From NCBI GenBank assembly GCA_016125385.1, contig WGLV01000025.1, positions 1 through 64,000 of the forward strand: a stretch of 64,000 nt of DNA. Direction: 5' to 3'. Both the position numbers and the translations under genes were made by a program. Each line of letters begins with the position of its first letter. Position 1 is the first letter of the stretch. The notes under the pieces were generated by a model that saw only the letters and a list, made by a program, of their open reading frames with translations, searched no databases and had not been told where the DNA came from. This document shows positions 1,826 to 58,230 of this stretch, in pieces. The DNA is from a bacterium (GTDB lineage: Bacteria > Hinthialibacterota > Hinthialibacteria > Hinthialibacterales > Hinthialibacteraceae).

Positions 1826-3274
1826 ATGACCGGTTTTTCGATGAAGATTCTGCTGATTCAACCGCCCGAGTTCAACATGATCACGACCAACGTGCCCAGC
1901 GTGGTCGATGAGGAGACCGGCGCGTATCCGCCGCTCGGGCTGTTATACGTCGCGGCGTTTATCGAGAGCCAGACCGGCCATCAGGTCGAGATTCTCGACG
2001 CCATCCTCGACAAACTCGATTACGACGGCCTGGAGGCGGAGATCCGCCGCCGCAAACCCGACGTGGTGGGCGTTCAGGCGATGACCTTCACCGTGATCGA
2101 CGCCACGCTGACGGCGAAGCTGGTCAAAAAGATCGATCCGTCCATTCCGGTCGTCTTCGGCGGGCCGCATGTATACATCTACCCCACCGAGACGCTGCGC
2201 ATCCCCCAGGTCGATTACATCGTGATTGGCGAAGGCGAGGAGACCACCGCCGCGCTGATGGACGCGCTCGCCGAAGGCCGCGACCCCGCGACCGTACCGG
2301 GAATCGGCTACAAGCAGGGCGGCGAAGCGAAACTGACGCCCTCGGTTCCGCTCAATCAGTCGCTTGACGATCTGCCCATGCCCGCGCGTCATCTCACCCC
2401 GGTCGACCGCTATTATTCGGTGCTGGCCCGAGAGACGCCCATCACCACGATGATGACCAGCCGCGGCTGCCCCATGCAGTGCATCTTCTGCGACCGCCCT
2501 CATCTCGGCAAGCAGTTCCGCTATCGCAGCCCTCAAAGCGTGGTCGATGAGATGGAAGCCTGCCAGCGCATGGGCGTCCGCGAGATTTTCATCTATGACG
2601 ATACGTTTACCATCCGCCGCGATCGCGTGATGGAGATCTGCCGCCTGTATCGCGAGCGCGGCCTCACCATCCGATGGGACGCCCGCGCGCACATCAACAC
2701 CATCAACGAAAAAATGCTCGACGCGATGGCCGCGTCGGGGTGTTCGCGTCTGCATTACGGCGTCGAGGCCGGTACGGAAGAGATTACTAAAGTGCTCAAA
2801 AAAGGCATCGACCTGCAACGCACCCGCGACGTGTTTCGTGAAACCAAACGGCGTGGCATGACCACGCTAGGGTACTTCATGATCGGCAACCCCGGCGAAA
2901 CGCGCGAACAGGCCATTGAGACCATCGAGTTCGCGCGGCGGCTCGACGCCGACTTCATCCATCTTTCCGTCGCAACGCCCTTCCCCGCGACGGAGCTTTA
3001 CCGCCTCGCTTTCAAGGTGGGGCTTTATCAGAACGACCACTGGCGCGAGTTCGCCCGCGACCCGCGCCCCGACTTCAAGCCCAAACTCTGGACCGAAGTC
3101 ATGTCGGAAGACGAGCTCATCAACCTGATGCGCTGGGGCTATCAGCGCTTCTACATGCGCGGCGGGTACATCGCGAGGCGCGTGCTGGAACTGCACAACT
3201 GGAACGAGTTCGTCCGCAAGGCCCGCGCTGGAATCCGCCTGCTGGCGTGGGGCGTGCGCGCCAAAGCCGTCTGA
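1826..3274 (+). CDS. B12-binding-domain radical SAM protein
   Basis: This is a cobalamin-binding radical SAM enzyme of the BchE/HpnJ/methyltransferase type. The N-terminal ~150 residues form a Rossmann-like B12-binding domain (KILLIQPPE start, VVFGGPHVYIYP, VIGEGEET). The radical SAM core carries the CxxxCxxC cluster at C215, C219 and C222 (RGCPMQCIFC) and a GVEAGTEE segment typical of this clade. Such enzymes methylate or rearrange lipids, cofactors and natural products; the substrate cannot be told here and no biosynthetic neighbours are visible. Start 1826 has GAAGG five bases upstream; an internal ATG at 1841 (MKILLIQPP) is the alternative. It is divergent from purB. Confidence 0.88.
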   Translation: MTGFSMKILLIQPPEFNMITTNVPSVVDEETGAYPPLGLLYVAAFIESQTGHQVEILDAILDKLDYDGLEAEIRRRKPDVVGVQAMTFTVIDATLTAKLVKKIDPSIPVVFGGPHVYIYPTETLRIPQVDYIVIGEGEETTAALMDALAEGRDPATVPGIGYKQGGEAKLTPSVPLNQSLDDLPMPARHLTPVDRYYSVLARETPITTMMTSRGCPMQCIFCDRPHLGKQFRYRSPQSVVDEMEACQRMGVREIFIYDDTFTIRRDRVMEICRLYRERGLTIRWDARAHINTINEKMLDAMAASGCSRLHYGVEAGTEEITKVLKKGIDLQRTRDVFRETKRRGMTTLGYFMIGNPGETREQAIETIEFARRLDADFIHLSVATPFPATELYRLAFKVGLYQNDHWREFARDPRPDFKPKLWTEVMSEDELINLMRWGYQRFYMRGGYIARRVLELHNWNEFVRKARAGIRLLAWGVRAKAV

Positions 3275-3339
3275 TCCGCCACCCTCTTTCTCTCAACCCA
3301 CCCTGTTTGAATTCAATGAATGCCGTGCTGTGTAAATCG

Positions 3340-3368
3340 ATCCCCTTTATGCGTGACGGGGATTTTTT
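3340..3368 (+). terminator. Probable terminator after the radical SAM gene
   Basis: ATCCCC (3340-3345) pairs with GGGGAT (3358-3363) across a 12-nt loop, and a T-run continues to 3368. The stem is short, so this is only moderately secure. Confidence 0.5.
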
Positions 3369-3536
3369 ATCCATAACATCTGGTAATTAAGCAAGTTGTA
3401 AAAATGACAGGCAAAACCTCATGCAAGACGTGCAGGTTCAGCCCGCGTCAAGAAATTTACGCGAGTTTTTTTTTGAGGATAAAACAGTTTAAATATTCTC
3501 TGGCGTGAATTTTTTAGCAGAAAGGAAAATTGGGAA

Positions 3537-4421
3537 ATGAGATTCGGATTCGTAAATTCAATGAAAAGAAGCCCGTTCGTCATCGGCTGTCTGCTCGCGG
3601 CGGCGCTGTTCGCCGCTCCGGACGTAAACGCGCAGATCAATGAAAATCTGGACGAGGCCGTTCCGTATTTCGCGGGAATTTTCAAACATGAAGCCGCGAA
3701 TATCGGCACGGCATGGGAGCAAAAAGACGCGGAGAATTTCGCTGCGGGGTTGCTGGTTACGTTGGATGAATACAAGGCCGCGCTCGGTGATGAAAACTTT
3801 CGGGCTCTGTCTTACTATCTTCCCGCGTATATCAAAAAAATCGCTCGCCGGATCGTCATCATCGGAAAGCAACCCGATCCCATGTACCTCGATGGCTATT
3901 TGGAGGATTTCAGGGGGCGCGTTGAAACGCTGGCCAAGCGCGGCGGACCGATCTTTCCTGATGAAGGGTCTCGAAATGTGATTAAAGCGCAGATCACGGA
4001 GCTCGTGGATTCGGTATTTGAGCAATTGAAGTCGGAAGAGATCGTCACGTCCGATGAAGAAAACGAATTGAAAGAAACGATCGTCTTGTATTTGTACAAA
4101 AAGGCGGACGACCCTTTGCTTTCTGAATTCAAACGAGTCGCGGCTCCTTCGGAAATGGAACGCTTTAAAGATGAGATCAATGCCAATGCGGGAAAAATAA
4201 AACTGGATCAAAACGCCCGAGTAAAAAACCCCGCGAGTGGGAAACGGGAGAAAACTCGGAAAATACTCTCTCTTGTTTCATCCTATGTAATGAAGAATTG
4301 GTATGTGGAACCGGTTCTGAGGCCCTCTGAGGAGGCCATTCAAAAATTCGATATGGCGATTCAGAAGCGGAAGGATGAAATCATGCGTGAGCATGAGGAA
4401 CGCGCCAAATCCAATCAGTGA
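3537..4421 (+). CDS. Secreted protein of unknown function
   Basis: I do not recognise a family. The 294-aa product opens with a Sec-type signal peptide (basic start, hydrophobic VIGCLLAAALFAA, cleavage near DVNAQ). The rest is mostly charged helix, with the tail rich in Lys and Glu (EEAIQKFDMAIQKRKDEIMREHEERAK), so a helical-bundle periplasmic protein is plausible. AAAGGA lies about 10 nt before the ATG; MKRSPFVIG at 3561 is an alternative start. It is the first of five exported proteins read in the same direction, with only 32 nt before the next gene. The DNA is AT-richer than the radical SAM gene to its left. Confidence 0.7.
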   Translation: MRFGFVNSMKRSPFVIGCLLAAALFAAPDVNAQINENLDEAVPYFAGIFKHEAANIGTAWEQKDAENFAAGLLVTLDEYKAALGDENFRALSYYLPAYIKKIARRIVIIGKQPDPMYLDGYLEDFRGRVETLAKRGGPIFPDEGSRNVIKAQITELVDSVFEQLKSEEIVTSDEENELKETIVLYLYKKADDPLLSEFKRVAAPSEMERFKDEINANAGKIKLDQNARVKNPASGKREKTRKILSLVSSYVMKNWYVEPVLRPSEEAIQKFDMAIQKRKDEIMREHEERAKSNQ

Positions 4422-4453
4422 ATAGAATAAACGATAAAAACAGGGAGATTGAC

Positions 4454-5302
4454 ATGATGAATTACATTCAGCATATCGTTGTATTTCTCGCGGCCGTTGC
4501 GGTCTCATTACTTAGCCTGAATGCGCAAGCCCAATCCTGCTATACCACGTATGGAGCAGTGGCGCATCAGCCATCCGATCCATCCGGCGGCGATTTGTTT
4601 GACGATGGATGGCAAATTGATTTTTCTCTGGGCTCTTCTGGAGGACATATCGAGGATACTTTGGACGTCGATACATTAAACGAGGAAACGGATAATTGGA
4701 TTATCGTCGACTTGGATTGCAATATAGTAGAGACTGCCTTGGCAAATTCGAATGGGACCTGTGATTCCAGCGTCCGGAAAGTGTGTGTGCAAGGCGGCGC
4801 CTGTATATACGTAGATACCGTAATTGACGGCGAGACATTATCTTACACAATTGATGATTATTCCGCTGAAGCGTATGTTGATAATTCGCCGGTGGGGTCT
4901 ATTTCAGAAACAAGTTCAAATACGAACATATCAGGGCTACAGTCAGGTGTTCTTACTTTGGATCATAAAAAGGTCGATGGGGTGTTTTATTATTGGCAAT
5001 GGAGTTACACAAATCCTTGGGTATGTACATTAGGTTCAGCCTGTGTTGAGGATCATCCGGTCGATCAATGGTATGCTGATGATAACGGATCGCATGCACC
5101 TATAGATGGGATTGACGGTGCGGGTACGGCAGTACACATGGATGTTGGCAGCGTTTTCAATCAAGCATCGGTGACCGCTCAATCTTCCTGGAATCCTCAT
5201 ATCTATGTAGCAAATAGGGGATATGAACAGGCATTTGCGCATCAAGTGATCCGTGTTCGAGCGTCTGTTTCGGATGTTTCATCTGGTGGAACTTGTCCAT
5301 AA
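4454..5302 (+). CDS. Secreted cysteine-containing protein, unknown
   Basis: No family is recognised. The 282-aa product has a clear signal peptide (MMNYIQHIVVFLAAVAVSLL, cleaved near NAQAQS). The mature part is rich in Ser, Thr, Asp, Gly and aromatics and has scattered Cys (SCYTTY, LDCN, GTCDSS, KVCVQGGACIY, VCTLGSACVED, GGTCP). This suggests a disulfide-stabilised extracellular beta-protein. GGGAG at 4443-4447 fixes the start at 4454 rather than the in-frame GTG at 4418 that overlaps the preceding stop. Base composition is AT-rich and unlike the flanking housekeeping genes, which may mean transfer. Confidence 0.7.
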   Translation: MMNYIQHIVVFLAAVAVSLLSLNAQAQSCYTTYGAVAHQPSDPSGGDLFDDGWQIDFSLGSSGGHIEDTLDVDTLNEETDNWIIVDLDCNIVETALANSNGTCDSSVRKVCVQGGACIYVDTVIDGETLSYTIDDYSAEAYVDNSPVGSISETSSNTNISGLQSGVLTLDHKKVDGVFYYWQWSYTNPWVCTLGSACVEDHPVDQWYADDNGSHAPIDGIDGAGTAVHMDVGSVFNQASVTAQSSWNPHIYVANRGYEQAFAHQVIRVRASVSDVSSGGTCP

Positions 5303-5404: not shown

Positions 5405-6529
5405 ATGTCTCGCGCTTTGTTTCTGATCGCGCTGCTCATGGGGATGATGGGAACGCTGAAGTCTGGCTGGACGGAGTTGTTAACGCCGATTCATCTTGGA
5501 ATATTCCAGGAAGGGGGGCAGGTTGGCAGCCCCGGGTATTTTAAAGCAATGGAGGTGGATTCAAATGGGAATGTTTATCTTGCCACGATGCACGAAATTG
5601 TCCAATATAATGAAGAAGAGGGCGTTTTTCGCAGAATTGCCGGGAATGGTATTCTTCCCTATGATGTTGAAGACGGTCCCGCGATAGATCTATCGGTTTC
5701 ACCTGAAGATTTGACGCTTTCTCCACAGGGCGATGTGTATTTTTTAAACGGAGAATGGTATATCACCGCTATTTCCAAAGATGGAATCGCTTCAAAGGTC
5801 TCTCTGTATCTCCCTGGTTCGTCCGATCCGCAATACCTTCTGATTTCGCGTTTTTTCGCTTCTCCCCAAACAAATCGGTTTTTCTTTTATGGATCGGGGA
5901 AATGGTATGGAGAAACCGGAGATAAAGCCGATGTTTTATACATCATGCAGGCGGATCAGAATGGCCTAGTCACCAAATACGTGGGAGGAGGAGATCAATC
6001 GATCGATCGTACGCCTCGCAATCGTCTTGATGTAAGTGTGGATGGGGCCGATCAGGTGTATTCAATGCCGGACAATACGCTGTTTTTCGCTTGGCATGGA
6101 CGAATTTTAATACAGAGCCGATTGTACGACCATTTGTATATGGCGGAAGTAACGCCGAAAGATGAAGTCAGTTTGTTTTTCGATATTGGCGGTGATAACA
6201 TTAAAATGATTAAGTATGGCGCCTTTTTGTCCAAAGAGATGTTTTGCGTTGGAAGGCGCGCGCGGCATGAGGGTTATGCTCCGGATCGATTTTTCGCGGA
6301 GGTAATCACGCCCGGTTCGACGGAGTCGCGTCCCGTCGCCGTATTCCCTGAAAATCCTGCCTATCGATGGCCCGTGGCGGATCAAGCGTACTTCGCTTAT
6401 TGGAAAGAGCGGGACGTGCTATACATCATGCTGCAATACCAGCGTGAAGAAAAACTCGAGCTCTGGAAAATCCCCGACGTGCTGGCTCGCCTGCAATCCG
6501 GCGCGCAAGATTGGGCGCTGTATGAGTAA
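5405..6529 (+). CDS. Secreted propeller-like protein, tandem copy 1
   Basis: The 374-aa exported protein starts with a signal peptide (MSRALFLIALLMGMMGTL). NHL/SMP-30-like motifs follow (AMEVDSNGNVYLAT, EIVQYNEEEGVFRRIAGNG, LSPQGDVYFLNGEWYITAI), so a beta-propeller is likely. The fold is inferred from motif rhythm only. AGGAG (5393-5397) precedes the ATG by 7 nt. The stop overlaps the start of a second copy (TATGAGTAA). The two copies share long stretches, including an almost identical C-terminal ~75 residues, but differ strongly in the segment around residues 215-280. Ligand and role are unknown. Confidence 0.8.
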   Translation: MSRALFLIALLMGMMGTLKSGWTELLTPIHLGIFQEGGQVGSPGYFKAMEVDSNGNVYLATMHEIVQYNEEEGVFRRIAGNGILPYDVEDGPAIDLSVSPEDLTLSPQGDVYFLNGEWYITAISKDGIASKVSLYLPGSSDPQYLLISRFFASPQTNRFFFYGSGKWYGETGDKADVLYIMQADQNGLVTKYVGGGDQSIDRTPRNRLDVSVDGADQVYSMPDNTLFFAWHGRILIQSRLYDHLYMAEVTPKDEVSLFFDIGGDNIKMIKYGAFLSKEMFCVGRRARHEGYAPDRFFAEVITPGSTESRPVAVFPENPAYRWPVADQAYFAYWKERDVLYIMLQYQREEKLELWKIPDVLARLQSGAQDWALYE

Positions 6530-7646
6530 CATCATGTCTCGTGCGTTGTTTCTGATCGCGCTGCTCATGGGGATGGCGGGGACGCTGGAAAACGGCTGGG
6601 CGGAGTTATTAACACCGATTCAAATTGCATTATTTAAAGAAGGAGAACAGGCGGGTTTCCCGGGATATTTCAAAGCGATGGAGGTGGATTCAAACGGCAA
6701 TATTTATCTTGCCACGATGGATGAAATTGTCCAATATAATGAAGAAGAGGGCGTTTTTCGCAGAATTGCCGGGAATGGTATTCTTCCTTACGATGTGGAC
6801 GAAGGCCCCGCGATTGATCTTACGATATATCCCGAAGATTTGGCGCTTTCTCCGCGGGACGATGTGTATTTTTTAAACGGTGAATGGGAAATTACCGCCA
6901 TCTCCGAGGAGGGAATCGCTTCAAAGGTTCCTCTGTATCTCCCTGGTTCTTCCGATCCAGTTTACTCCTTGGAAGCGCCTTCTTTTGCCTCTCCCCTAAC
7001 CAATCGGTTTTTCTTTTATGGATCGGGGAAATGGTATGGAGAAACCGGCGATAGAGCCGATGTTCTATACATCATGCAGGCGGATCAGGACGGCCTGGTT
7101 ACAAAGTATGTTGGCGGGGGAGATCAACCGATCGATTACACGCCTCGCGATCGTATGGATGTAAGAATTAATAGAATCGATCAGGTGTATTTTTTGCCGG
7201 ATGGTACGCTGTTTTTCCCTTGGCTTGCGAGAGAGGAAATATATCGTCACTGGTACATGGCTGAAGTGACGCCGCAAGGTGGCGTGAGTCTGATTTTTGA
7301 TATTAATGATGATAAAATCGGCTTGTTTAACTATGGAGCCTTCGTATCCAGGGAACTTTTTCTCTTTGGAAGGCGCGCGCGGCATGAGGGTTATGCTCCG
7401 GATCGATTTTTCGCGGAGGTAATCACGCCTGGTTCGACGGAGTCGCGTCCCGTCGCCGTATTCCCTGAAAATCCCTCCTATCGATGGCCCGTGGCGGATC
7501 AAGCGTATTTCGCCTATTGGAAAGAACGGGACGTGCTATACATCATGATGCAATACCAGCGTGAAGAAAAACTCGAGCTCTGGAAAATCCCCGACGTGCT
7601 GGCTCGCCTTCAATCCGGGGCTCAAGATTGGGCGCTGTATGAATAA
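6522..7646 (+). CDS. Secreted propeller-like protein, tandem copy 2
   Basis: This is a paralogue of the gene just upstream, with the same signal peptide and the same NHL-like motifs (DSNGNIYLATMDEIVQYNEEEGVFRRIAGNG). It is four residues shorter when counted from the matching Met. The ATG at 6522 overlaps the TAA of copy 1, so translation is probably coupled; the Met matching copy 1 is at 6534. The AGGAG that precedes copy 1 has been replaced here by the end of copy 1, leaving only GAG. The last ~200 bases are nearly identical to copy 1 even at silent sites, while the middle differs. This points to recent duplication or gene conversion. Confidence 0.8.
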   Translation: MSNIMSRALFLIALLMGMAGTLENGWAELLTPIQIALFKEGEQAGFPGYFKAMEVDSNGNIYLATMDEIVQYNEEEGVFRRIAGNGILPYDVDEGPAIDLTIYPEDLALSPRDDVYFLNGEWEITAISEEGIASKVPLYLPGSSDPVYSLEAPSFASPLTNRFFFYGSGKWYGETGDRADVLYIMQADQDGLVTKYVGGGDQPIDYTPRDRMDVRINRIDQVYFLPDGTLFFPWLAREEIYRHWYMAEVTPQGGVSLIFDINDDKIGLFNYGAFVSRELFLFGRRARHEGYAPDRFFAEVITPGSTESRPVAVFPENPSYRWPVADQAYFAYWKERDVLYIMMQYQREEKLELWKIPDVLARLQSGAQDWALYE

Positions 7647-52603: not shown

Positions 52604-52636
52604 AAAAAAAGAGGCGATTCGGAATGAACCGCCTCT
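52604..52636 (-). terminator. Terminator of the haem unit (shared)
   Basis: A 7-bp stem (52610-52616 AGAGGCG with 52630-52636) is followed on the minus strand by seven T (52610-52604). It lies between the convergent helicase fusion and hugZ. Confidence 0.75.
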
Positions 52637-52675
52637 CATCGCATTCCGTCTGAGCGAAATTTTGTTGCGTGATTT

Positions 52676-53425
52676 TTAGATTGAACCGGCTGAGACGGGG
52701 GCGCCGCCGCGGGCGCGGTGAAGCATGTCGATCAGCCGGGTTTTCGCTTCGCTGGCGTTGGCGATGGGCTTCTCGAAATCGATGCGGATCAAGCGGTCTT
52801 CCCGCCGCAGGTCGAAGCCTTCCGGATCGACGCCGGTCATGAGCCAGCCCGTTCCCCCGGCGGAGGCGTACACGCTTGCGTACAGATCGAGCGCGTCCCG
52901 GTGGCCGGCGTTCATGTGTTCGATTACGCCGGCTTCCTGCTTCTTCAGTTCGGCGGCGGCTTCTTCCGCAAGGATGATCTTCTCCGCGTTGATCCAGTGA
53001 ATGCGTCCGAAGCCCGCGACCAGGTGCGCGCGCTCGACGTTCATGCGGAACAGAAAAAAGTCGTGCGCGTTTTCATAGCGCCGTGCATGTTCGTGACGGC
53101 GGAAAAAGCGCTGTTTCACCTCGGGGTCCTCAATCTCCTCCCACACGCCCTGAACCGAGGCGCGCGGCCCTGACAGTGGATCGGTCAGTCCGTCGTTTTC
53201 TTCAAACATCAGTGACGATACCGGGTTCTTACGGATGTTTTTGGTATGCACCGCCAGGTTGGAGATAAAAATCAGCGGGCGGGCCTGATGGTCGCAGGCG
53301 TTCAGCGTCAGCGACGCGTACGGCTCCGCGCAAGAAGATGAACCGAGTAAGGTGGCGAGTGTGGCTTTAACGCGAGACCGGATCAGGCGTCTCACGATCT
53401 GTTCGGGGGATTTGTCATCATACAT
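52676..53425 (-). CDS. hugZ: HugZ-family haem oxygenase-like protein
   Basis: The 249-aa cytoplasmic protein is of the split-beta-barrel HugZ/PNPOx-like family. An N-terminal flavin-fold barrel (KATLATLLGSSSCAEPYASLTLNACD, VSSLMFEEND, ASVQGVWEEIED) is followed by a DUF2470-type C-domain (EHMNAGHRDALDLYASVYA). In characterised relatives this protein binds and degrades haem to free iron. Its position as last gene behind hmuTUV supports that role. The start at 53425 has AAGGAG upstream and overlaps the hmuV end by 8 nt. Confidence 0.9.
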   Translation of the reverse strand: MYDDKSPEQIVRRLIRSRVKATLATLLGSSSCAEPYASLTLNACDHQARPLIFISNLAVHTKNIRKNPVSSLMFEENDGLTDPLSGPRASVQGVWEEIEDPEVKQRFFRRHEHARRYENAHDFFLFRMNVERAHLVAGFGRIHWINAEKIILAEEAAAELKKQEAGVIEHMNAGHRDALDLYASVYASAGGTGWLMTGVDPEGFDLRREDRLIRIDFEKPIANASEAKTRLIDMLHRARGGAPVSAGSI

Positions 53426-54293
53426 AACGGCGTTCTCCTTGATTGATTGTAGTGGGTTCTGAAAAAGAAATCGAATTCGTTTGTTTTTCAGCGTTGGCTC
53501 GCCCATCCAGCATCACTTCGGGAATCATCATGGGACGCCCCCGGTTCGGATGCGTACTGATAACGGCGGGATGACCGAACGCGCGTTCGATCGCTTCGAC
53601 GCGCATGGCCTCCGCCGGCGGCGCGTCGATTAAAACCTCGCCCGCTTTCATGACCACCATGCGGTCGGAGTACCACGAAGCCAGGTTGAGATCGTGCAGA
53701 ATAATCAGAACGCCCACGCCGGAGCGGGCGATTCCATGCAGAACTCTCATCATTTCATGCTGACGGCGCAGATCGAGATTAGAGGCCGGTTCGTCGAGCA
53801 ACAAATACCGGTTATGGTTCGAACGGGGCGCGTCGATCTGGGCGAGCACCCGCGCGAACTGCACGCGTTGCTGTTCACCGCCCGACAGGGTGGGGTAAAT
53901 TCGGCGGCGCAGCGAATCCACGCCCGCCGCCGACAGCGCTCGCTCGATCGCGTCGTTGTGTTCGCGCCGCGAAGCCGTGGCATGATGCGGGTGGCGGCCC
54001 ATCGCGACGACTTCTTCGGCCAGAAAAGGAAACTCCAGCGAAGACGATTGCGGCATCACGGCGCGGCGCCGCGCGATCTCGATCGGGCTGAGCTGACTGA
54101 GCGGGACGCCGTCAAGTTCAACGCGTCCGATGCCCGGTTGAATTTCGCTGGCGAGCGTGCGCAGCAGCGTCGACTTGCCCGCGCCGTTTTCGCCCAGTAT
54201 GGCGGTCAATTCGCCCGGCGCGATCGAGCAATGCACGGCGCGCAACAGATCACGGCCCGCCGTGGTAACGGTCAAATTATCAGCCTTCAGCAT
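53418..54293 (-). CDS. hmuV: Haem ABC importer ATP-binding protein
   Basis: The 291-aa ATPase has Walker A GENGAGKST (34-42), a Q-loop near MPQSS, signature LSGGE (136-140), Walker B LLLDEP (164-169) and switch His in ILHDLN. The HPHHATASR segment after the Q-loop is characteristic of HmuV/haem importers. It energises HmuU in the inner membrane. The C-terminus carries ~25 extra residues. It begins 1 nt after the permease stop, and GAGGTG lies before the ATG. Confidence 0.93.
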   Translation of the reverse strand: MLKADNLTVTTAGRDLLRAVHCSIAPGELTAILGENGAGKSTLLRTLASEIQPGIGRVELDGVPLSQLSPIEIARRRAVMPQSSSLEFPFLAEEVVAMGRHPHHATASRREHNDAIERALSAAGVDSLRRRIYPTLSGGEQQRVQFARVLAQIDAPRSNHNRYLLLDEPASNLDLRRQHEMMRVLHGIARSGVGVLIILHDLNLASWYSDRMVVMKAGEVLIDAPPAEAMRVEAIERAFGHPAVISTHPNRGRPMMIPEVMLDGRANAEKQTNSISFSEPTTINQGERRYV

Positions 54294-54294
54294 G

Positions 54295-55395
54295 TTAACA
54301 CCTCACCCGGCGGCGATGGCGAACCAGCAAAAACAGAAAAAAAGGGCCGCCAAGCAGGCTGGTGACCAGACCGATGGGGAGTTCGGCGGGTGAGACCCAG
54401 GTTCGGGCGATGATGTCGGAGAGTAACAGCAGCGCGGCGCCCGCGATGGCGCTGCCCGGCGCCACGAATCGATGGTCGGGCCCCCAGATCAGACGCAGCA
54501 GGTGCGGCGCGGCCAGCCCGATGAATCCAATGATTCCGCTTAATGAAACGGCGGCGCCCACGCCCAATGCGGTCGTGGCCAGCAAGGCGATCTTGAGCCG
54601 TTGTACGTTAACGCCGGTGTGCGCCGCTTCGCGCTCGCCCAGCACGTATAGGTTCAGCGCGTCGCCCGCGAAAACGCATACCGCCAGCGGCGCCAGCATG
54701 AAAGGGATGGCCGGCGCCAGCGAGGTCCACATCGCGCCGCTTAAACTGCCGAACATCCAGAACATGATGGCGCGCATCTGCTGGTCGTCGCTCCAGTAAA
54801 TCAGAATACCGATGCAGGCCGAAACAACCGCGTTGACCGCGACGCCCGCGAGAATCATCATCGTTGCGTCAGTTCGGCCCTGGCGGGTCGCCATTCGGTA
54901 GACGAACCACGAGGTCAATCCGCCGCTGGCGAACGCGCTTAACGGAGTCAGGTAAATCAGCGACTCGCCGCCGAACGTTCCCGCCAGCGCGGCGCCCGCC
55001 CAGGTCGCCGCCACGGCGCCCAGCGCCGCTCCGCTCGACACGCCCACCAGGCCCGGATCGGCGAGCGGATTGCGGAAAAGCCCCTGTAACGCGGCGCCCG
55101 ACACGCCCAGGCTGGCGCCCGCCAACGCTCCCAGTAAAACGCGCGGCAGCCGGATGTTCAGAACGATGGTTTCCTGTAACGCGGTAACCCCCTGTGCGTT
55201 TATCAGCCCCAGGCGCGACAGTACGATCGTCAACACGTCGAGCGGAGATACAGGCGCCGCGCCCATCCCCACCGAGTAAATCATTATGGCCAGCAACAGA
55301 ACCGACAGCCCGCACAAGGCGGCTGTACGCGCTCCGGAGCCACGGAGCGCGGGGCCTTGGTGACGATTGAGAGTGATAGCGGCGATGTTATTCAT
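54295..55395 (-). CDS. hmuU: Haem ABC importer permease
   Basis: The 366-aa inner-membrane permease is of the FecCD/BtuC family, with about ten helices. Family landmarks are IVLNIRLPRVLLGALAGASLGVSGAALQGLFRNPLADPGLVGVSSGAALGAV and IGFIGLAAPHLLRLIWGPDHR. It forms the haem channel with HmuV. Its start overlaps the hmuT stop by 8 nt. The closest match is to haem rather than B12 or siderophore permeases, given the gene order. Confidence 0.93.
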   Translation of the reverse strand: MNNIAAITLNRHQGPALRGSGARTAALCGLSVLLLAIMIYSVGMGAAPVSPLDVLTIVLSRLGLINAQGVTALQETIVLNIRLPRVLLGALAGASLGVSGAALQGLFRNPLADPGLVGVSSGAALGAVAATWAGAALAGTFGGESLIYLTPLSAFASGGLTSWFVYRMATRQGRTDATMMILAGVAVNAVVSACIGILIYWSDDQQMRAIMFWMFGSLSGAMWTSLAPAIPFMLAPLAVCVFAGDALNLYVLGEREAAHTGVNVQRLKIALLATTALGVGAAVSLSGIIGFIGLAAPHLLRLIWGPDHRFVAPGSAIAGAALLLLSDIIARTWVSPAELPIGLVTSLLGGPFFLFLLVRHRRRVRC

Positions 55396-56314
55396 GGCTG
55401 ACTCTCAACGCCTCCGGAATGACGTAGCCCGGATGGATTTTCGCGGCCAGCTCCGCTGCTGCGCGGACATAGCGGGGGCCGAACATCAACAGATACTCGC
55501 TGTCCATGACCAGAATTCGGCCCTGTTGCACGGCGGGTAGATTCTGTAATTCGGGCAGGGAAGCCAGCGCGTCTTCGCCGCCCATCATTGCGGTTCCGTG
55601 CGATGGAACCAGAATCAGCGCGGGGCCGGACGCGATGATCGATTCTCCTGAAACCGGTTTATAACCTGAAAAGCCTTCCATCGCGTTACGGCCGCCCGCG
55701 AGGCGGATGATGGCGCCGGCGCCGGTGTTTTCGCCCGCCGCCAGCACCGAACCGCGTTGCACGCCCATCAGGCAGAGCACGCGGGGGCTGTCGTGAAAGT
55801 TCGTGAGCGATCTCTTCAGCGCCGTGCTCTCATGCTGGATGGTTTGAATCAACTCGGCGCCTTGCGGCTCGCGGTTGAGGGCCTTCGCGATGATGCCGAT
55901 CTTCTCGGCCACCGCTTGTTCTGAATACCCTTGTGAAACCCGCACCAGCGGCGCACCCGCGTCGCGCAGGTGTTTGATCGCCGTTTCGGGGCCGGCGCCC
56001 TGCGTGGCCAGAATCAGGGTGGGGTTGACGGACAAAACGCCTTCGGGCGTCAACGTTCTCATGTACCCCACGCTGGGCAGTTTTTTTAACTCGGGCGGGA
56101 ACAGGCACGTGTCGTCGCGCGCGACGATGTCTTCCATCGCCCCGAGCCGCGCGGCGATTTCCGCTACGTCGCCGCCCACCACCACCACGCGCGATACGCT
56201 GGCGATCTCAACGGCCGCTCCGGTTGAATCGACCACCGTATGCGCCGCGCCGGGAAGCGCCGCCACGATCGCTGCGAGCAAGAGAAGGCTGAATATTCCG
56301 ATCCGGTGATCCAT
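55388..56314 (-). CDS. hmuT: Periplasmic haem-binding protein
   Basis: The 308-aa class III solute-binding protein has a cleaved signal peptide (GIFSLLLLAAIVAALPGAAHT) and no lipobox, so it is freely periplasmic. Tyr84 in PSVGYMRTLTPEG corresponds to the conserved haem-ligand Tyr of ShuT/PhuT/HmuT. ATQGAGPETAIKHL and YKPVSGESIIASGP are typical family segments. It delivers haem to HmuUV. AGGAG precedes the ATG by 11 nt. It follows a pseudopilin gene by 27 nt with no terminator between. Confidence 0.92.
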   Translation of the reverse strand: MDHRIGIFSLLLLAAIVAALPGAAHTVVDSTGAAVEIASVSRVVVVGGDVAEIAARLGAMEDIVARDDTCLFPPELKKLPSVGYMRTLTPEGVLSVNPTLILATQGAGPETAIKHLRDAGAPLVRVSQGYSEQAVAEKIGIIAKALNREPQGAELIQTIQHESTALKRSLTNFHDSPRVLCLMGVQRGSVLAAGENTGAGAIIRLAGGRNAMEGFSGYKPVSGESIIASGPALILVPSHGTAMMGGEDALASLPELQNLPAVQQGRILVMDSEYLLMFGPRYVRAAAELAAKIHPGYVIPEALRVSHE

Positions 56315-56341
56315 GAATCGATTGCTCCTGTTTTGATGTCT

Positions 56342-56920
56342 TTAATGCGCTTTCGCGTTTACGCTGCGGCGGAAAATCTCACCGCCGCTGCTCAGCCCGT
56401 TGCTGGCGTCGTATCGATACCACTCCGGCCTGACGAATCCTTCCGGAAAAAAGTAATAGGGGTAATGCAGCCGGTGATCGGGCCCGACGCTCGCCAGGCT
56501 CCATGCGAATCCGGCCGGGTGGTTATCCGCGCCATGCGACGCGCCGTTCTCCGCGTCGCTCCGGTTATAGATGTACATGCGGTTCTCCCACCGCTCCGCC
56601 TCGTCTTCACTGAACAGAAACGGGTGCAGCATCGGCTGAAACGGATCGGTGGGCGGAGCGCCGATGTAGGCGACCGGCGTGGTGAGCGGGCGCAGGCGTT
56701 CGAAGTACCCCGGCGCGAATGGGCCGTCGGTGAAGGGAACGTTTCCACTGTCGAGCCGGTACAGTTCGATGCACTGCGAGAGCAAACGCAGGTCGCTTTG
56801 CGCCCGGGCGATTTTCGCCCGGGTTTGCGCGCTCATGAAATTGGGAGCCGCGATCGAGACCAGGATCCCGATCACGGCTGTTACGACAAGCAGTTCAATC
56901 AAAGTGAACGCGTTTTTCAT
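56342..56920 (-). CDS. Prepilin-type pseudopilin in the haem unit
   Basis: The 192-aa protein has a type II/IV prepilin N-terminus: four residues, then FTLIELLVVTAVIGILVSIAAPNF with Glu at mature position 5. The residue before the cleavage site is Ala (KNA/FTLIE) rather than Gly. The body resembles GspG/H-like pseudopilins of Planctomycetes-type genomes (AQSDLRLLSQCIELYRLDSGNVP, WSLASVGPDHRLHYP). It is assembled or anchored at the inner membrane by type II/IV machinery, none of which is nearby. It lies 20 nt after the secreted protein gene and 27 nt before hmuT. Confidence 0.88.
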   Translation of the reverse strand: MKNAFTLIELLVVTAVIGILVSIAAPNFMSAQTRAKIARAQSDLRLLSQCIELYRLDSGNVPFTDGPFAPGYFERLRPLTTPVAYIGAPPTDPFQPMLHPFLFSEDEAERWENRMYIYNRSDAENGASHGADNHPAGFAWSLASVGPDHRLHYPYYFFPEGFVRPEWYRYDASNGLSSGGEIFRRSVNAKAH

Positions 56921-56940
56921 CGCGGCCGCTCGAATTCGCC

Positions 56941-58230
56941 TTAATACATCAGCCAGTTCGCCGCCGATGACGTTTCAGAAGCCAGCCGCCCGCTCAGCGT
57001 GAATTGTCCGAAAGGCAATTGATCGTAAGCTGGCTTGGTTTCGATCATGACGTAATAAATCAGACCCGCCTCCGCAGTGAACGACAGCGGCGCGAGACGT
57101 TCGCCTTCGTCCGTGTCGTCAACGCATGTGACTTCGGAAACCTGGTGCGTGTTGAGGTTGTAGGCATGCAGCGAGATCACCGTGTCGATTACCGGATTGG
57201 GGCCGTCTCCCGGCGTGATTTCGATCACGTATTGCTCACCGGCCTGGGTGGATGGCAGGCGGTACCAGATGTCGGCCCCACTCAGGGCGTTGCCGCCCGA
57301 ACCGTGACCTTCACCCTCGACGGGTTCGATGCAGCCGCTGATTTCGAGATCGGCGTTGGCGGTGGTGTCGCCGCTGGCGTGGAAGCCCCAGCCGATCTCG
57401 TTGAGGTCGATCGCGTCCATGATGTCGTTCGCCGAAGCCTCGCCCAGCGCCTCGATCGACAGAGTCACCGAGTTTTCAGTGCTGCCAACGTAATAGTCTT
57501 CCCAGATCACGGTGTAGGTGACGCCCGCTTCGAGTTGCGCCGCGATTTGAGAATCGCCGATGATGCTGGTGGCGGTTTTCAGCTCGGTTAACGAGCCGCA
57601 CTCACCGGTCCAGACGCCCACGCCGCCGAAGCCGCGCTCGGGTAGTTCATGACCGGGGATGGGCGCCGATTCGCCCCGGGTGGCGCCGAGCGTGATCAGA
57701 TACGCGCCGGATGCGCCGGGCGTGAACGTCCAGAATCCATCATGCCCGCCGGGGCGGCTGATCGAGTCGGCCGCGCCGCCCCGGTAGTCGCCGCTGTCGG
57801 TCGACGCAGTCACGTCGAAGGTCTGGCTGTATGGCAGGTCGGCGCTGACGATCGCGTAGGGAAACGCGGCGCCGTTCAGATCGCCGCAAGCGTCCAGACC
57901 CGCCGGATAGGCTTCATCCTGCAGCGGGCTGGCCAGCGTCGATGTCCCGGCGCTGGCTTGCGGGATGTCAATCACGCGGCCGTTCGCGTAAATCACCTGG
58001 GCGAGAATCCCGCGCGGCGGTGGATCGCAGACCCCGGCGTCGATCAAGCCGTATTCCGATTGCAGATACAACAGAATCGGCAGTTCCTGATCGGCTGTAA
58101 TGACGGAAAATCCGTTTGGATTTAAAGAGGTATACAGGTGAAAAGCGCCCCCGGGCGCCGCCGCGTCGATGGAACCAGCGGCGAAAATCGTGCAACAGGC
58201 AAGCGTGAACATAGAGAAAACGAATCTCAT
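56941..58230 (-). CDS. Secreted beta-rich protein heading the haem unit, unknown
   Basis: The 429-aa exported protein (signal FVFSMFTLACCTIFAAGSIDA) has no clear family. It is beta-rich, with two regions resembling pre-peptidase/bacterial carbohydrate-binding folds (GGHDGFWTFTPGASGAYLITLGATRGESAPIPGHE, GADIWYRLPSTQAGEQYVIEITPGDG). Cysteines are paired (VCDPP, DACGD, GECG, SGCIE, VTCVDD). AAGGAGACG precedes the ATG. Being the first gene before a pseudopilin and hmuTUV-hugZ, it may capture haem or haemoprotein outside the cell, but no haem motif is recognised. Confidence 0.72.
   Translation of the reverse strand: MRFVFSMFTLACCTIFAAGSIDAAAPGGAFHLYTSLNPNGFSVITADQELPILLYLQSEYGLIDAGVCDPPPRGILAQVIYANGRVIDIPQASAGTSTLASPLQDEAYPAGLDACGDLNGAAFPYAIVSADLPYSQTFDVTASTDSGDYRGGAADSISRPGGHDGFWTFTPGASGAYLITLGATRGESAPIPGHELPERGFGGVGVWTGECGSLTELKTATSIIGDSQIAAQLEAGVTYTVIWEDYYVGSTENSVTLSIEALGEASANDIMDAIDLNEIGWGFHASGDTTANADLEISGCIEPVEGEGHGSGGNALSGADIWYRLPSTQAGEQYVIEITPGDGPNPVIDTVISLHAYNLNTHQVSEVTCVDDTDEGERLAPLSFTAEAGLIYYVMIETKPAYDQLPFGQFTLSGRLASETSSAANWLMY

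Follow-up and report, generated by a model that had tools for sequence, protein, structure and literature searches.

Haem and vitamin B12 exceed the size limit of porins, and textbook uptake of both by diderm bacteria proceeds through TonB-dependent receptors in the outer membrane. The closest described relatives of the system considered here are the haem-uptake operons HmuRSTUV, BhuRSTUV and ShuTUV. The 64,000-nucleotide stretch of contig WGLV01000025.1 (assembly GCA_016125385.1), hereafter the window, comes from a bacterium of the Hinthialibacterota and carries a six-gene operon, all on the minus strand, encoding a secreted protein of 429 residues, a pilin, HmuT, HmuU, HmuV and a HugZ-like protein. 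The operon agrees with the described systems in its hmuT-hmuU-hmuV order, in a HmuT nearest to HmuT/BhuT and in a haem-type ATPase. It differs from them in having neither HmuR nor HmuS, in encoding a HugZ-like protein instead, and in the two genes at its front, for the pilin and for the secreted protein, which ends in a tryptophan-containing tag (the W-tag). In this form it appears to follow, for haem, a plan consisting of a tagged secreted protein, a pilin and a FecCD-type importer. A dedicated haem role of the leading pair is put forward tentatively, as a serious possibility that falls somewhat short of probable.

Read in its four-gene context, HmuTUV is firmly predicted to be an inner-membrane haem importer, the binding protein being of the HmuT/ShuT/BhuT type, the ATPase of the HmuV type and the permease nearest to HmuU. 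The closest solved relatives of HmuT are the Yersinia HmuT structures 3md9 and 3nu1 (E ~5e-49), followed by BhuT (5b58, 5gj3), and the segment LPSVGYMRTL, including VGYMRTL, is retained in the alignment with solved HmuT/BhuT; in HmuT, the tyrosine of its GYMR portion is the haem ligand. HmuV lies above the cut-off of 261 bits of NCBIfam NF010068 (heme ABC transporter ATP-binding protein). HmuU is a full-length FecCD permease, 41-53% identical to its nearest relatives in GTDB; most of these are hmuU-type genes of proteobacteria, arranged in the order hmuT-U-V. Among the nearest hmuU loci with full flanks (n = 73), 35 include HmuS and 40 a TonB receptor. The product of the last gene has the PNPOx/CREG plus DUF2470 architecture of HugZ and is related in the PDB to PA4388, MSMEG_6519 and plant HOZ, its solved relatives thus including haem-binding proteins of the HOZ type besides PA4388; it scores below the cut-off of TIGR04109/TIGR04110 (53 bits versus 240). 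Its domains make it a probable haem-degrading or haem-handling enzyme. A preliminary description of this DNA had called both the importer and the haem-degrading enzyme clear; the importer is borne out by NF010068 and the PDB relatives, whereas the HugZ-like protein has the architecture and stays under the HugZ cut-off.

The plan recurs in relatives from other families, in which pilin genes stand directly ahead of FecCD importers. The order in G011 is a 450-residue secreted beta-propeller-like protein, pilin, ATPase, binding protein and permease, and in G006 and G008 it is pilin, permease and ATPase; a cobalamin riboswitch stands at the front of all three loci. Over their full length the pilins of these loci are homologous to each other (~42%), not to the window pilin. 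According to a search with a profile of the C-terminal part of this B12 pilin, 13 of the 14 genomes of the phylum have one copy or two, as do four of the other genomes sampled. With two copies at contig edges left out, 16 loci were testable, and a cobalamin riboswitch (Rfam) heads 15 of them, in at least four families and with other phyla included. It lies immediately 5' of the pilin at L311, L312, L314, L317, L318, L319, L320, L324, L144 and L146, and at L313, L315, L058, L321 and L322 a single secreted protein or a pair of them stands between it and the pilin; at the sixteenth locus, L323, it heads btuF-C-D, and the pilin lies farther downstream on the same strand. CobT-like genes are found downstream in L312 and L314. 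Rfam scans detected no cobalamin riboswitch at ~70 other pilin loci of the window's genome, so that the link is specific to one pilin subfamily, and riboswitch control of pilins in general was rejected on this ground. A separate BtuFDC operon with a cobalamin riboswitch and without a pilin (L048:9436-9607, G000:C60) is kept in the family (L061, L065).

The secreted partners at the B12 pilin loci have a tryptophan within their last 10 residues in 11 of 11 cases, compared with 22/104 and 15/86 phylum secreted proteins and 16/190 elsewhere. One partner family is propeller-like (G002, G004 twice, G005 and G011), and a second consists of 278/281-residue proteins. The third is a family of B12-linked surface proteins; its members in G025 and G312, genomes without a detectable TonB receptor, carry the tag ...EDW[SM]LYE and are encoded by genes that overlap the pilin gene; the G053 member is untagged and belongs to a TonB-receptor-BtuFCD-type locus (L059:2-970 and 3088-5103). 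A TonB receptor (PF00593) is absent from 11 of the 18 genomes checked, and all 11 carry a B12 pilin, four of them having been included because of it. At the level of sequence, the regulation of the pilins and W-tagged secreted partners in relatives places them in the B12 regulon. Because the B12-riboswitch operons of relatives carry a pair like that of the window, pilins may help diderms to capture large cofactors.

By this analogy, the leading pair would act for haem as the B12 pair acts for cobalamin. The tagged protein would be exported via type II secretion or type IV pilus-like machinery with the aid of its own pilin, and would bind haem or haem proteins at the cell surface; a path through pilus and secretin would carry the ligand toward HmuT, besides or instead of a TonB receptor. 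HmuTUV would then import the haem, and the HugZ-like protein would handle it in the cytoplasm. It is plausible that a pilin assists the passage across the outer membrane. The broader proposal, that tetrapyrroles (cobalamin or haem) are taken up via dedicated pilins and W-tagged proteins, a secretin and FecCD importers without a TonB receptor, is possible and rather doubtful.

The layout of the window operon (Table 1) is as compact as had been described, with genes separated by at most 27 nucleotides or overlapping; the spacings from the first gene to the last are 20, 27, -8, 1 and -8 nucleotides, and a promoter scan gave no match on the minus strand inside the operon. For the hugZ-like gene, the most likely start is the ATG at 53425, which follows AAGGAG, rather than the longer alternative at 53506. 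Hairpins had been reported on both sides of the operon. That at the 3' end was recovered by a hairpin scan; that at the 5' end is a long-loop stem at ~58404-58345 followed by TTTTTT, visible by eye and exceeding the loop limit of the scan, which probably terminates the upstream gene. The 20-nucleotide gap between the first two genes (window 56920-56960) contains GAATTC and GCGGCCGC side by side, resembling a cloning linker, a pairing that is probably due to chance.

Table 1. Coordinates of the haem operon, its associated signals and one B12-type pilin locus
Feature	Position	Strand	Evidence or remark
429-residue secreted protein gene	56941..58230	-	signal peptide and W-tag, no family match
C-terminal tag region of the 429-residue protein	56941..56976	-	W-x-[LIVM]-[YF] at the extreme end
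GspG-like orphan pilin, 192 residues	56342..56920	-	PF07963, PF08334, TIGR02532
hmuT, haem-binding periplasmic protein	55388..56314	-	PF01497, PDB relatives
hmuU, FecCD permease	54295..55395	-	PF01032, 298 bits
hmuV, ATPase	53418..54293	-	NF010068, 306.6 bits
hugZ-like (PNPOx/CREG beta-barrel + DUF2470)	52676..53425	-	PF13883, PF01243, PF10615
Terminator-like hairpin after the hugZ-like gene	52609..52637	-	12 pairs and T run
B12-type pilin locus L311	2251-3266 (G000:C65)		cobalamin riboswitch

The window pilin, a prepilin of the GspG-like kind, has a class III signal (MKNAFTLIELLVV) and the C-terminus YDASNGLSSGGEI. It passes the cut-offs of PF07963 and TIGR02532, which describe the N-terminal methylation and cleavage motif, and also matches PF08334; against TIGR01710 (GspG) it reaches 56 bits, under the cut-off of 88.85, and it is an orphan, outside any gsp operon. 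Two gsp-like operons with GspG-like genes of their own are located elsewhere in the genome (L136, L139). Taken alone, the window pilin says little, because it has paralogues at about 90 scattered loci, and the neighbours of the 95 pilin genes read in this genome are very diverse. Among these 95, type II secretion operons excluded, only the window pilin and that of L121 are packed within 40 nucleotides on both sides. L121:2160-4123 (G000:C18) follows a similar plan, with a tagged secreted DUF5689 protein, a pilin and an FmdE-like protein with a signal peptide, separated by overlaps or gaps of 13 nucleotides, and is perhaps another ligand-linked pair.

The W-tag, W-x-[LIVM]-[YFW] followed by at most three residues, ends 19 of 173 signal-peptide proteins and 3 of 281 others at the sampled loci of this genome, most of which were picked for holding a pilin and in which signal peptides were called by a crude script; at internal control positions the motif occurs in 10 of 8172 cases. 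Genome-wide figures rest on these regions together with a search of all the genomic DNA for the pattern, which yielded 20 tag sites, mostly at predicted protein ends and many of them with signal peptides. Because the reversed pattern gives similar counts, the raw number of DNA sites proves nothing alone, and it is their coincidence with protein ends that counts as evidence. Across 80 loci from other bacteria, the tag occurs in none of the 191 secreted proteins and none of the 490 others; it is present in G006, G009 and G012. It is commoner where a pilin gene follows directly behind the secreted gene (7/21 versus 12/228, p = 3e-4, the window pair excluded). Within the window, tandem duplicate secreted proteins of 374 residues (5405-6529 and 6522-7646) both end in the W-tagged ...SGAQDWALYE, with no pilin nearby.

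As had been stated in the preliminary description, the usual outer-membrane receptor is missing: no TonB receptor is encoded within the window, and neither HmuR nor HmuS is linked to the operon. In the search that it had proposed for TonB/ExbBD and haem receptors elsewhere, four TonB receptors were detected with two Pfam models in the genome, whose completeness is 95.8%, and a TonB/ExbB/ExbD set adjoins one of them. When scored against the haem, siderophore and B12 receptor families, none of the four reaches any of their cut-offs; two belong to the TOL_0244 family, and for the receptor at C48:57454 the haem receptor model is its own second-best match, at a score far under the cut-off. Receptors at L047:5054-13592 (G000:C2) and L045:1273-7347 (G000:C48) adjoin YfiR-like, sensor kinase and response-regulator genes, and these regulator-type neighbours suggest sensing modules rather than nutrient uptake.

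The idea, already raised in the preliminary description, that a secreted protein and a pilin provide an alternative haem route gains from the identity of the importer, from the lack of a linked receptor and from the tie between pilins of the phylum and B12. A number of points weigh against it. The window pilin is of the common, scattered type; it falls outside the B12 subfamily, with 33% identity to the B12 pilin of G011 in an alignment and a different C-terminus, and no cobalamin riboswitch was found near it (Rfam). The W-tag of the 429-residue protein is shared by many unrelated secreted proteins across the genome, its modules look generic as far as the sequence goes, and no sign of haem binding was seen in it. 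The haem version is represented by a single case, no relative of it having come to light in the genomes and hmuU neighbourhoods searched. The TonB apparatus and the four receptors are present in the genome, and the absence of an adjacent receptor within ~5 kb is ordinary, being observed in 33 of the 73 fully flanked hmuU loci. The best consensus match in a search for a Fur box at the operon was 11/19, equalled in 184 of 500 shuffles. Lastly, inward movement of a ligand by a pilin is something that we infer.

A strong rival explanation is that the leading pair is a generic tagged surface protein and its export pilin, which share a transcript with the importer and have a role of their own, such as adhesion or polymer binding, haem entering via one of the four TonB receptors; this explanation is quite possible without being likely. 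The dispersed pilins with their diverse neighbours, the breadth of the tag, the TonB/ExbBD operon beside a receptor and the frequent arrangement of a tagged protein followed by a pilin without an importer are all in its favour, as is the occurrence in Planctomycetes of dispersed genes for pilin-like proteins with signal-peptide genes on their flanks (PMC8567305). However, packing as tight as that of the window pilin is rare among the pilins of this genome, pilin-first importers recur in three families, and no TonB receptor of the genome exceeds a haem-family cut-off; these points speak against a generic pair.

The origin of the operon bears on another explanation. The same six-gene order, for which the preliminary description had proposed a search, was found neither in same-family genomes nor at 80 GTDB hmuU neighbourhoods, where homologues of the window pilin or the 429-residue protein numbered zero; conservation of the order in relatives was therefore rejected. 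A homologue of the 429-residue protein was likewise not detected in same-family genomes, the only one, a weak one, lying at an unrelated place in G013. A contig scan with hmuU alone gave nothing, and with a FecCD alignment it gave mostly proteobacterial loci. The FecCD genes of class relatives match the window hmuU at 33-40% at best, and several lie behind a cobalamin riboswitch, so the haem cassette was probably acquired horizontally. That a horizontally acquired hmuTUV-hugZ cassette simply landed by chance behind a resident pair of tagged protein and pilin is nevertheless unlikely. The proteobacterial affinity of hmuU, its distance from the FecCD genes of class relatives and the lack of family-level relatives of the 429-residue gene agree with such a landing, but the gaps of 20 and 27 nucleotides lack a promoter, and a pilin stands ahead of 3 of ~7 independent importer operons when pilins make up ~1-2% of genes, for which a post hoc estimate gives ~3e-5 to 2e-4, or 1e-3 to 5e-3, equally post hoc, when the ascertained case is excluded.

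The 429-residue protein consists of a signal peptide, a beta module at about residues 130-260, a second beta domain and the tag ...SSAANWLMY. The module is of the type 'D.FW.FTP..SG.Y.I', several copies of which are found in a longer protein (L064) of the class relative G013. The protein matched nothing in Pfam, NCBIfam or the PDB sequences, and HmuY, NEAT and other haemophore domains of Pfam/NCBIfam were not detected in it. Its structure models are all-beta and of low confidence (predicted local distance difference test, pLDDT, of 40 and 57), and a fold search returned assorted beta-sandwiches; its identity as a known haemophore was rejected on these results. It is highly improbable that the protein is a haemophore-like feeder of an unlinked TonB receptor, as HmuY is of HmuR, with the pilin serving only its export. 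The position of HmuY ahead of hmuS-hmuT-hmuU in the myxobacterium-like relative L053 and the second-best, sub-threshold match of the receptor at C48:57454 to the haem receptor model speak for such a feeder; the missing haemophore match and the weak structural model speak against it.

Should the link between the leading pair and haem be functional, stand-alone pilins, which are spread through such genomes, would gain a first concrete job, and a TonB-independent route would become directly testable. In a whole lineage, some members of which lack any detectable TonB receptor, the B12 riboswitch controls a pilin together with tagged surface proteins, and in one genome a similar pair heads a haem importer; the W-tag may serve as a handle on which secreted proteins use such an export path.

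Beyond the Hmu, Bhu and Shu operons, four known arrangements invite comparison. HmuY-led operons (HmuY-HmuS-HmuT-HmuU in L053; TonB-dependent receptor-HmuY-hmuTUV in L179, L184 and L194) resemble the window operon in that the importer genes are preceded by one for a secreted protein; they contain no pilin, and the 429-residue protein is not HmuY. Cobalamin uptake by BtuB/BtuFCD has FecCD-type importers, the cobalamin riboswitch and cobT in common with the B12-pilin loci, to which the B12-pilin regulon adds a pilin and W-tagged proteins, several of its genomes being without a detectable TonB receptor. The pilin and SBP_bac_10 (DUF1559) families of Planctomycetes comprise dozens of prepilin-signal proteins encoded throughout the genome, often with signal-peptide genes on either side (PMC8567305). 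They resemble the pilins described here in number, scatter and neighbours; the W-tag is not described there, and in the present case one subfamily is controlled by a cobalamin riboswitch and encoded beside importers. The competence pseudopili and type II secretion systems (ComGC/GspG) share a like N-terminus with the window pilin, and a ligand might pass through their secretin; in contrast to theirs, the pilins here stand alone, away from machinery genes. In the literature searched, no report was found of such a connection of pilins with cobalamin riboswitches or with the uptake of haem. The wider pilin uptake route would, if shown, be categorically new, and the window operon is a variant of the Hmu-type systems.

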